Shown piece after piece: positions 5,915 to 18,693 of a stretch of 64,000 nucleotides of DNA. The notes under the pieces are model-generated. The model was given only the letters and a program-made list of their open reading frames with translations, was not told the origin of the DNA and searched no databases. The translations under genes and the position numbers were made by a program. Source of the DNA: an uncultured Pelagibacteraceae bacterium (GTDB lineage: Bacteria > Pseudomonadota > Alphaproteobacteria > Pelagibacterales > Pelagibacteraceae); NCBI GenBank assembly GCA_902569785.1, contig CACFVO010000003.1:1-64000 (forward strand), in the 5' to 3' direction. Each line of letters opens with the position of its first letter. Within the stretch, counting starts at the first letter, position 1.

Positions 5915-5938
5915 GAGAGGGGTTTTTAAACCCCTCTC
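5915..5938 (-). terminator. Intrinsic terminator hairpin downstream of the 63-aa gene
   Basis: GAGAGGGGTTT-TT-AAACCCCTCTC, 11-bp perfect inverted repeat, GC-rich against an AT-rich background. Confidence 0.8.
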
Positions 5939-5948
5939 TATATAAAAG

Positions 5949-6140
5949 TTAAATATTCTCTGGTGATTTTTTTAAATGCTTAAGAACTTTACCGGCATTA
6001 ATGCCCTCTTTAATTCTATATCCAGAAGTTCCATTAGCGTTAGCTTCTACTGCTTTTCTGGACTTTTGCATTTTGTTAAGAAATTCAGCCTGAGATTTGC
6101 TTCGGCTGAATTCATTTAACAATTTAGTGTGTCTACCCAT
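5949..6140 (-). CDS. Small basic protein of unknown function, 63 aa
   Basis: MGRHTKLLNEFSRSKSQAEFLNKMQKSRKAVEANANGTSGYRIKEGINAGKVLKHLKKSPENI; AAGGAGAG Shine-Dalgarno before ATG; dedicated terminator. Confidence 0.75.
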   Translation of the reverse strand: MGRHTKLLNEFSRSKSQAEFLNKMQKSRKAVEANANGTSGYRIKEGINAGKVLKHLKKSPENI

Positions 6141-6179
6141 TACACTCTCCTTGTTTTATATTATTCAACCTACTTTTAA

Positions 6180-6220
6180 CTCATGTAGATGAGCCACTTT
6201 CTTACCATGTGGATGGTAAG
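6180..6220 (-). promoter_or_regulatory. Tandem hairpins in the leader of the 63-aa gene (possible structured RNA)
   Basis: On the minus strand: CTTACCAT-CCAC-ATGGTAAG, linker AAAGTGG, CTCAT-CTAC-ATGAG; both stems perfect; loop CCAC is complementary to linker GTGG. Confidence 0.5.
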
Positions 6221-6262
6221 TGAATTATAATATATAAGTATTAAACTATCAATAGTTGTAAA

Positions 6263-6418
6263 ATGAATAATAAAACCTTAGGAATAATTGCAATAGTATT
6301 TGGAAGTCTAGTCCTATACAGCGAACAGGAATATGCTTGGATAATATCGGCAATATTTATTGGAATAGGAACTGGTATTTGGTTTTGGAAAGATAAAAAA
6401 AGCGATACAGAAAAATAA
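6263..6418 (+). CDS. Small membrane protein, 51 aa, unknown function
   Basis: ATG...TAA reads MNNKTLGIIAIVFGSLVLYSEQEYAWIISAIFIGIGTGIWFWKDKKSDTEK; ends 1 nt before the next ATG; two predicted hydrophobic segments. Confidence 0.6.
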   Translation: MNNKTLGIIAIVFGSLVLYSEQEYAWIISAIFIGIGTGIWFWKDKKSDTEK

Positions 6419-16291: not shown

Positions 16292-18374
16292 GAAAACTCC
16301 AAAATTGAAAAAAATAGAATCTGTAAAAAAACATCATGGCATATCGCTAGAAGACGATTATGCTTGGGTAGATCAACCTAATATTTTAGAAGTTTTGAAA
16401 GACCCAAGTAAATTATTACCAGATGTAAGGAACTATATTGAAGAAAATAATTCTATTACGAAAGATTATTTTAAAGATGTAAAAAATTTACAAAAAAAAC
16501 TTTTTAATGAAATTAAATCTAAAATAAAGCTAGATGATACTTCATTAAAATTTAAAGACAAAAAATATTATTATTGGTCTAAAACCGAAACTAAAGGAAA
16601 TTACGGAAAAAATATAAGACAACTTATAGATGGCTCTAAGCCAGAAGAAATTTACTTTGATGGCGATCTTGAAAAGAAAAAATGTGGATCAGAATATTTT
16701 GGTTTAGGAAGCATAAGCGTTTCTCATTGTGATAAATTTATGGCTTATTCTTTAGACCTCAAAGGATCAGAGTATTTTACAATTTATCTTAGAGATCTTA
16801 ATAGCTATAAAAATGAAAAGGATATTATAGAAAATACTAGTGGGAGTATAACTTGGTCTTTAGATAGTAAAAGCTTCTTTTATTCAAAGCTAGATAAGTT
16901 TCATAGACCTAGACAAATTTATAAACATGAAATTGGATCACCTATAAATAGTGATGAATTAATATTTGAAGAAAAAGATGAGACTTTTACTTGTGGTATC
17001 AGTTTAAGCTCAGATGAAAAATTTTTCATAATTTCTACTTCAGACCATATCACTACTGAAGAATATTTTTTTCCGTCAAATTCGAATTCTATTAACCCAG
17101 TTTTATTCCAAAAAAGAGAAAAGGATGTTCGTTACTCAATAGACTCATGGAAAGAGTATTTTTATATCCAAACAAATAAGAACGCGAGAGATTATAAAAT
17201 TCTTAGATGTAAAATAGATAATATTAATGAACTAGAGGAATTCATTCCTTCAAAAAAAGAGACAATTATTGGATCTTTAGAGTTTTTAGATAACTTTATA
17301 ATTCGAGGTGAAAAAACAGATGCTATCCCTAAACTATTTATAAGAAATATAAAAACTAATGAAGAAGAAGAAATAAAAATTTCAGATGAGGAAATAGGTT
17401 GTCCTACGGCTTCTTTAATGGAAAAAAATAGAAACACTACCAAAATTAGAGTTGGATGGGAAAGCATGAAAACCCAAAGTAAAATTTATGAATATGATAT
17501 TTTAACAAAAGAAAAAAAACTTGTTAAAGAAACTGAAATACCTTCGGGTCATAATCCAGATAAATACATCGTTGAGCGAATAAAAGCTAAATCTCATGAT
17601 GGTAGAATGATCCCCATTAGCTTAGTGCGTTTGAAAAATTCTAAACAAGATGGAAAATCTAAAATCTTACTTTATGCCTATGGAGCTTACAAGCATAGTG
17701 TATCTCCATCGTTTAGTGTCTCAAGGTTTAGTTTAGTAGATCGAGGAATTACTTTTGCAATTGCACATGTTAGAGGAGGGGGTGATCTTGGAGATGTTTG
17801 GCATGAAGAAGGAAAAAAGAAATTAAAAAAAAATACCTTCTTAGATTATATTGCATGTGCAAACCATTTGATTGATAAAAAATATACTTACAAAGGTGGG
17901 ATTTGTTTCTACGGAGGTTCAGCGGGAGGCCTAACTGGAGGAGCGCTAGCTAACATGGCGCCTGAATTATTTTTTTCTATGCTTCTACTTGTGCCTTTTG
18001 TTGACACCATGACTACCATGCTTAATGAAAAACTTCCACTTACTCCAGCTGAATGGGAGTTATGGGGAAACCCAATTGAGAGCAAAGAATACTTTGAATA
18101 TATTTATTCTTACTCTCCTTATAATAATCTTAATAATAAATTTTATCCTTCAATGCTGATTACCACATCTCTCTTTGATAATCGTGTCTTATACAGTGAA
18201 CCTGTAAAATATATTGCTAAGCTAAGGGATGTTAAAAAAGATAATAATACTCAATTATTAAAGTGCAAGATGGAAGCTGCTGGTCATGGAGGCATGAGCG
18301 GACGAGATAATGCAATTACAGAGTTAGCTGAAGAATATAGTTTTATCTTAAAAACTGCTAAAATTAATAATTAA
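16290..18374 (+). CDS. ptrB: Oligopeptidase B (S9A prolyl oligopeptidase family)
   Basis: HHGISLEDDYAWVDQPN, AYGAYKHSVSPSFS, FYGGSAGGLTGGALANMAPELF catalytic Ser, AAGHGGMSGR. Confidence 0.93.
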   Translation: MKTPKLKKIESVKKHHGISLEDDYAWVDQPNILEVLKDPSKLLPDVRNYIEENNSITKDYFKDVKNLQKKLFNEIKSKIKLDDTSLKFKDKKYYYWSKTETKGNYGKNIRQLIDGSKPEEIYFDGDLEKKKCGSEYFGLGSISVSHCDKFMAYSLDLKGSEYFTIYLRDLNSYKNEKDIIENTSGSITWSLDSKSFFYSKLDKFHRPRQIYKHEIGSPINSDELIFEEKDETFTCGISLSSDEKFFIISTSDHITTEEYFFPSNSNSINPVLFQKREKDVRYSIDSWKEYFYIQTNKNARDYKILRCKIDNINELEEFIPSKKETIIGSLEFLDNFIIRGEKTDAIPKLFIRNIKTNEEEEIKISDEEIGCPTASLMEKNRNTTKIRVGWESMKTQSKIYEYDILTKEKKLVKETEIPSGHNPDKYIVERIKAKSHDGRMIPISLVRLKNSKQDGKSKILLYAYGAYKHSVSPSFSVSRFSLVDRGITFAIAHVRGGGDLGDVWHEEGKKKLKKNTFLDYIACANHLIDKKYTYKGGICFYGGSAGGLTGGALANMAPELFFSMLLLVPFVDTMTTMLNEKLPLTPAEWELWGNPIESKEYFEYIYSYSPYNNLNNKFYPSMLITTSLFDNRVLYSEPVKYIAKLRDVKKDNNTQLLKCKMEAAGHGGMSGRDNAITELAEEYSFILKTAKINN

Positions 18375-18378
18375 AATT

Positions 18379-18693
18379 TTAAAAACAATTTTTACTAGTA
18401 AAACCTATCACTATATTGTTTTGATTTATTTCAAATTTTCTCTCGCACTTAATTTTGAATTTTTTAGTAATATAAATGTAATTTCTATTTCTAGTTTCTA
18501 AAAACTCTATTTTGTCAGGTTGACCATAAGCAATTTTAAGTTCTGACTCTGGCTTATTTAACCACTTGCTCAACTCTTTTTCCTCTTGAATTGTTTTTTC
18601 ATCTATTTTTTTGTAAACAGATTGACAGGCGTTAAGAAGCATAAATGAACTAAATATTATAAAAAAAAATTTAATTTTGCTCATAATGATCAA
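18379..18693 (-). CDS. Small lipoprotein, 104 aa
   Basis: FFIIFSSFMLLNACQS lipobox. Confidence 0.65.
   Translation of the reverse strand: MIIMSKIKFFFIIFSSFMLLNACQSVYKKIDEKTIQEEKELSKWLNKPESELKIAYGQPDKIEFLETRNRNYIYITKKFKIKCERKFEINQNNIVIGFTSKNCF

Follow-up and report, generated by a model that had tools for sequence, protein, structure and literature searches.

The stretch of DNA analyzed here (the window, 64,000 nt) is a piece of the SAR11 genome G000, which comprises 857 kb in 23 contigs. The relatives named below are all genomes of Pelagibacteraceae or Pelagibacterales, for the most part from single cells. A sigma-70-type promoter on the minus strand is followed by a structured leader, a 63-aa open reading frame (ORF), a GC-rich hairpin, and an rlmN-like gene. 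The ORF, which a first-pass annotation of this DNA had claimed, was found at 5949-6140 (−) and encodes a basic protein with the motif NANGTSGYxIKxGxNxGK (PHROG 32989). A divergent ORF for a 51-aa membrane-protein-like product (window 6263-6418, +) begins approximately 10 bp away from the 63-aa gene's −35 box, and both promoters therefore lie in one short intergenic region.

The promoter scan placed the promoter of the 63-aa gene at 6252-6224 (−), with the arrangement TTGATA-17-TATAAT. Its −35 element (TTGATA, 6247-6252) and −10 element (TATAAT, 6224-6229) together score 11/12, and the −10 element ends 6 nt ahead of the first stem of the leader. Among the 78 leaders that we parsed into two units, 62 have a promoter score of at least 9/12, and in 52 of these 62 the −10 element ends 6-7 nt before unit 1. 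Given this conserved spacing, transcription is expected to start on the initial base of unit 1 or no more than a few bases away from it, which puts the predicted +1 at approximately 6217. The idea of a structured leader had been tied in the first-pass annotation to a transcription start no further downstream than about 6180, and the predicted start lies upstream of that position.

The leader occupies 6217-6170 (−) and consists of two abutting 24-nt units. Each unit comprises a 5-bp hairpin with a 4-nt loop, a 6-nt A-rich linker that ends in AAA, and a 3′ tail that is the reverse complement of the loop. In unit 1 (6194-6217, −; ACCAU-CCAC-AUGGU-AAGAAA-GUGG), the first stem pairs ACCAU (6217-6213) with AUGGU (6208-6204) around the loop CCAC (6212-6209), and the linker AAGAAA (6203-6198) leads to the tail GUGG (6197-6194), which pairs with the loop. 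This unit was delimited from the sequence, from covariation, and from a match to covariance model R1 at 6163-6217. In unit 2 (6170-6193, −; CUCAU-CUAC-AUGAG-UUAAAA-GUAG), delimited from the sequence and covariation, the first stem pairs CUCAU (6193-6189) with AUGAG (6184-6180) around the loop CUAC (6188-6185), followed by the linker UUAAAA (6179-6174) and the tail GUAG (6173-6170), which pairs with that loop.

The minus-strand string quoted in the first-pass annotation, CTTACCAT-CCAC-ATGGTAAG-AAA-GTGG-CTCAT-CTAC-ATGAG, matches the window sequence exactly. Both of its hairpins are present, but the conserved stem of unit 1 has 5 bp (ACCAU:AUGGU) and not 8. The extra CTT:AAG pairs of the window lie at or before the predicted transcription start, and the 8-bp stem is not conserved, as relatives hold 4-5 bp and a few slightly more. 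The suggested pairing of CCAC with GUGG is supported by covariation, although the geometry given for it (8-bp stem, 3-nt linker) was wrong. In H-type pseudoknots, a 5-bp stem can be spanned by a 6-nt linker, but 8 bp cannot be spanned by 3 nt. Therefore, the conserved form is the feasible one. The second loop:tail pair, CUAC:GUAG, with its tail 6 bases 3′ of the stem, had been overlooked. If the loop is wholly paired, a 4-bp second stem uses up every nucleotide that could form the other loop. The outermost pair, on the side away from the junction, may therefore open, and the second stem perhaps has 3 bp.

Between unit 2 and the start codon lies an A/U-rich stretch, GUUGAAUAAUAUAAAACAAGGAGAGUGUA (6141-6169, −), which contains the Shine-Dalgarno sequence AAGGAG (6152-6147, −). 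When the window leader is folded with nested pairs only, AAGGAG is paired at its first two bases and nowhere else. All 78 leaders have 18-29 nt separating the end of unit 2 from the start codon, which places this end at the edge of the footprint of an initiating ribosome.

The energy of folding by itself is unremarkable (minimum free energy z = −1.26 for the minus strand and −1.61 for the plus strand). Chance hairpins would be compatible with these values and are ruled out by covariation. The 78 leaders derive from family proteins found in 126 of the 169 genus genomes. The helix between a unit's own loop and tail (first three pairs) is intact in 77 of 78 leaders for unit 1 and in all 78 for unit 2. 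The loop of unit 1 pairs with the tail of unit 2 in none of the 78, and the loop of unit 2 with the tail of unit 1 in 30. Because the parser itself seeks complementarity, independent evidence had to come from alignments made without structure. A MAFFT alignment of all leaders set unit 2 against a hairpin that is inserted in some of them, and each leader type was therefore given its own alignment. For the 14 insert-type leaders (alignment A4), 99.3% of cells are paired and 11 of 20 pairs changed on both sides, with a covariation of 0.318 compared with 0.079 for shuffles and at most 0.039 for slid partners. For the 11 window-type leaders (alignment A3), 97.0% of cells are paired and 8 of 18 pairs changed on both sides, with a covariation of 0.183 compared with 0.088 for shuffles and at most 0.058 for slid partners. 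In both alignments, the first stems covary as well. For the contig scans, alignment A1 was too diverse, and A5 was used instead.

The second stem of unit 1 occurs as CAC:GUG, GUC:GAC, AGC:GCU, and CUC:GAG, and that of unit 2 as UAC:GUA, GAC:GUC, CGC:GCG, AUC:GAU, CUC:GAG, and CAC:GUG, with GCC:GGC in addition in genus g9. On the protein tree, which has few columns and many unresolved forks, helix identity changed at least six times in unit 1 and at least eight times in unit 2. A one-sided break was seen in a single parsed leader (L032). The constant parts are the linker AAA and the pairs at the helix junctions, and hardly any unpaired bases are conserved. The extra hairpin of some leaders lies in unit 2, inserted after the first stem and ahead of the AAA linker; one clade has it in both units. 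Unit 1 is degraded in, or missing from, a few leaders (L014, L035). Collectively, covarying substitutions, on which the first-pass annotation had staked its proposal, are present in stems and pseudoknot pairs alike. The existence of a structured, pseudoknotted RNA element is thus strongly supported by covariation among relatives: each loop pairs with a downstream strand, and both helices show compensatory change, as in H-type pseudoknots.

We then examined the distribution of the leader. Covariance model R1 yielded one strong match each in 35 genus genomes, and model R2 one strong match each in 76 other genomes of the 169. Wherever checked, strong matches precede a gene of the 63-aa type. Four weak R1 strays lie within or overlap ORFs. 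With one strong site per genome and only these weak strays beside it, a many-gene regulon was rejected. Within the family, genera g1, g4, g7, g9, and g12 have the leader. It also occurs in another family of the order, again ahead of an NGTSGY-type protein. Since the element occurs in single copy before one gene and ends 18-29 nt from the start codon, it is reasonable to infer from its placement that it is cis-regulatory.

Several loci depart from this arrangement. In genus g9 (L281 and L282, approximately 1501-1556), a leader with UCAC:GUGA in unit 1 and AGCC:GGCG in unit 2 is followed by a basic protein of 48 aa (MFYKDFKLLRK...) with no NGTxGY motif. This protein is either a homolog that has diverged or the product of a gene swapped in behind the same RNA. 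Genus g5 (L143-L145) has another leader, seemingly a single pseudoknot when read by eye (GCAUA-ACUGA-UAUGC ... UCAGU; the pseudoknot pair is UCUGA:UUAGG in L144), which is possibly an ancestral or reduced form. In L062, L133, and L134, a conserved leader of unrelated appearance, GACGGAAGUAGCGAAAGCGAAGGAACGCACC, replaces the tandem pseudoknots. At G030:C1:356323-356585, the leader is intact (R2 E value 4.5e-14) and the protein match contains several stop codons, possibly through frameshift or decay of the gene. In insert-type clades (L030, L040, L042, L045, L046, and similar), the ORF is open in frame back to the AUG in the first stem of unit 1 (MEKKTRHSHAG...). Automatic annotation may therefore place the start codon too far upstream and mask the RNA. 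A leader peptide was rejected, as the first-stem AUGs open unrelated, variously terminated frames across clades (sequences read by eye).

The 63-aa protein is under purifying selection, with dN/dS of approximately 0.1-0.24 against close relatives (Nei-Gojobori), which indicates a real protein. Searches of the family against Pfam, NCBIfam, PADLOC, and PDB sequences returned no usable match. AlphaFold2 predicted a confident N-terminal helix (residues 3-29), with the remainder at low confidence. In a class-wide sample of 289 genomes, protein matches were confined to the window's genome and one other genome of the same taxonomic family. Judged from these and the other sequence matches, the protein family is SAR11- and pelagiphage-specific, with a core-gene-like distribution. 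Some homologs, mostly of the MRDTK type, lie directly 3′ of an erpA/iscA-like gene (NETERCGCGESF; loci L066, L073, L074, L076, L077, L079, L139-L142, L146, L148-L155, and L158-L160). They have no pseudoknots, and a -10-like sequence stands almost at the ATG, which suggests a leaderless mRNA.

Downstream of the gene, the minus strand carries a GC-rich hairpin of 10-11 bp, GAGAGGGGUU-UAAA-AACCCCUCUC (5915-5938, −), 10 nt past the stop codon and before rlmN. The first-pass annotation had called this a strong terminator. The hairpin is real and recurs, with widely different sequences, in 64 of 90 examined relatives. However, a U-tract follows it in only 1 of the 64 and is absent in the window, where the terminator scan reported nothing at this position. 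The 3′ end of the gene therefore does not combine a GC-rich hairpin with a U-tract as an intrinsic terminator does. The hairpin is possibly a SAR11-style 3′-end or processing element.

More than 20 deposited records of pelagiphages (podo-, sipho-, and myovirus types) also contain members of the protein family. These copies resemble the erpA/iscA-adjacent (mostly MRDTK) type, and the leader was not found in 11 inspected pelagiphage records with the protein. In eight viral contigs, the promoter, the tandem pseudoknots, and the gene occur together, and in one type of these contigs unit 2 has switched to CCAC:GUGG. Two of the eight, L254 and L255, share helicase- and primase-like proteins, and L255 has matches to phage DnaB-like helicase, DNA primase, and phage thymidylate synthase (thyX) families. 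Owing to these matches, both look like genuine phage genomes. The L254 module has no DNA-level match among deposited phages. As a negative control, a viral scan with the loose pattern CTCATNNNNATGAGTTAAAAG retrieved 26 unrelated contigs, none of which keeps the loop:tail pairing. Twelve further viral contigs (L241-L252) have the protein in the version MTNxKFDRTMAIYSANQEIEKKEKALL... and lack the leader. In phage HTVC008M, an unannotated homolog is flanked by the DNA end protector gene and baseplate genes (18220-18390; approximately 1150-1330 of L095), with an apparent interruption of its frame near the N-terminus.

To place the leader among known RNAs, we searched the whole window against Rfam 15 and obtained no match at the gathering cut-off. 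At E values up to 10, there were only chance-level matches, none covering the leader as a unit and none to a riboswitch. The open-access literature yielded no description of the tandem-pseudoknot leader. Meyer et al. 2009 described SAR11 motifs (rhtB, pntA, bablM, and SAR11_0636) that are similar in being conserved intergenic RNA candidates limited to SAR11-type genomes, and two of them, pntA and bablM, likewise have several stems one after another. In contrast to the leader, the motifs of that study have other gene contexts, and by their descriptions in the text and Table 1 of that study, none is two pseudoknots or precedes this gene. The leader is thus a new structured-RNA family within a known general kind, pseudoknotted mRNA leaders.

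Within this kind, the closest layout is that of the gene 32 operator of phages T4 and RB69, in which a 5′ H-type pseudoknot (approximately 28 nt) is followed by an A/U-rich ribosome-binding-site stretch, and the gene encodes a nucleic-acid-binding protein (PMC535899). In T4, both the pseudoknot and the adjoining, less structured A/U-rich stretch are bound by gp32 itself (PMC535899). The SAR11 leader likewise places pseudoknots before a less structured ribosome-binding region, and its gene product is basic. However, it has two tandem 24-nt pseudoknots, and the 63-aa protein shows no relation to gp32. The likeness is one of layout and is no evidence of descent.

We propose, with a probability of roughly one half, that the tandem pseudoknots are a cis-acting leader that functions as a translational operator, read probably by the gene's own basic protein, or else by another RNA-binding protein. 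The pseudoknots would form the 5′ end of the small-protein mRNA, and the basic product, or the other RNA-binding protein, would bind both of them cooperatively. The bound protein would then extend over the adjoining A/U-rich ribosome-binding region, so that plentiful protein would lower translation of the mRNA. Phages that carry the module would import the same feedback control. The terminator scan found none between the RNA and the gene, which makes control of translation or mRNA stability likelier than attenuation. A translational operator is favored because the leader is essentially confined to this gene family and moves with it into phages, and because it ends at the ribosome-binding region without a terminator, for which T4 gene 32 is a precedent. 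The protein does not need the leader, since the MRDTK-type and cultured-pelagiphage homologs are leaderless. The g9 leader, which precedes a 48-aa protein without the family motif, weakens a strict model in which the RNA binds its own product. This case could be accommodated if recognition of the RNA fell to a basic helix rather than to the NGTSGY part, or to a third factor. The variability of the helices leaves little for base-specific recognition beyond CAU:AUG, the first C:G of the second stem, and AAAG.

The pseudoknots might instead be a constitutive 5′-terminal stabilizer that shields a short mRNA from 5′-end-dependent decay and has no specific protein partner. The coincidence of the predicted +1 with the first base of unit 1, the conserved hairpin that closes the 3′ end of the mRNA as well, and the freely varying helix sequences, which suit a purely structural role, all fit this explanation. 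We nevertheless regard it as doubtful, because a generic stabilizer would be expected on several genes, whereas the strong matches number one per genome and are gene-specific, and because the near-fixed 24-nt period in two units and the conserved AAA and CAU:AUG are more than a blocker needs. A metabolite or ion riboswitch with two tandem aptamers is unlikely, even though a conserved 5′ leader in tandem layout is what one might look like. SAM-II and SAM-V are small H-type pseudoknot aptamers, and SAM-V is found in SAR11, so that a (single) H-type pseudoknot close 5′ of a start codon is known from the same organisms (PMC2704228). The leader has two units and lacks an Rfam riboswitch match even at E values up to 10, conserved ligand-pocket bases, and a methionine gene. 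Its loops are wholly or nearly paired and, of the unpaired bases, only the linker AAA is constant, which leaves little for a pocket. It also lacks a terminator, and it serves a single gene family that has no metabolic annotation.

Tandem pseudoknot units before a small, phage-shared gene in bacteria also recall the ToxIN layout, and the leader could by this analogy be released and act as an independent small RNA, titrating a protein in the way of the ToxI repeats of type III toxin-antitoxin systems (PMC5772629). ToxI consists of 5.5 repeats of 36 nt, with a terminator before toxN, which encodes a ribonuclease toxin (PMC5772629). The SAR11 leader has no 36-nt repeat array, only two non-identical units, and no terminator ahead of the gene. 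No ToxN-like ribonuclease was found downstream, and the core-gene-like 63-aa protein has no toxin or defense match in Pfam, NCBIfam, or PADLOC, making a released RNA very improbable. The palindromes adjoin the −10 box, begin at +1, and have conserved, palindromic CAT/ATG cores, as DNA operators at the promoter might. Their compensatory changes, however, tie each loop to a tail that follows the stem on its 3′ side, which is meaningless for a DNA palindrome. This loop:tail covariation refutes a DNA operator as the sole explanation, and we give such a reading in place of an RNA structure next to no weight.

A translational operator thus remains our preferred reading, and the leader probably acts as an RNA gene switch of a new kind. 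More tentatively, and with appreciably less confidence, it may represent a SAR11/phage class of RNA regulators read by an encoded pseudoknot-binding protein, which pelagiphages would have acquired with or without the operator and which would act on the expression of host or phage genes during infection. SAR11 are the most abundant bacteria of the ocean and among the most numerous cells on Earth, and few of their regulators are known. A single-copy, covarying element that extends across the order and occurs also in phages offers regulation that is directly testable in this poorly understood group. It would give databases a new structured-RNA family and would highlight a small protein that several kinds of pelagiphage have repeatedly kept.
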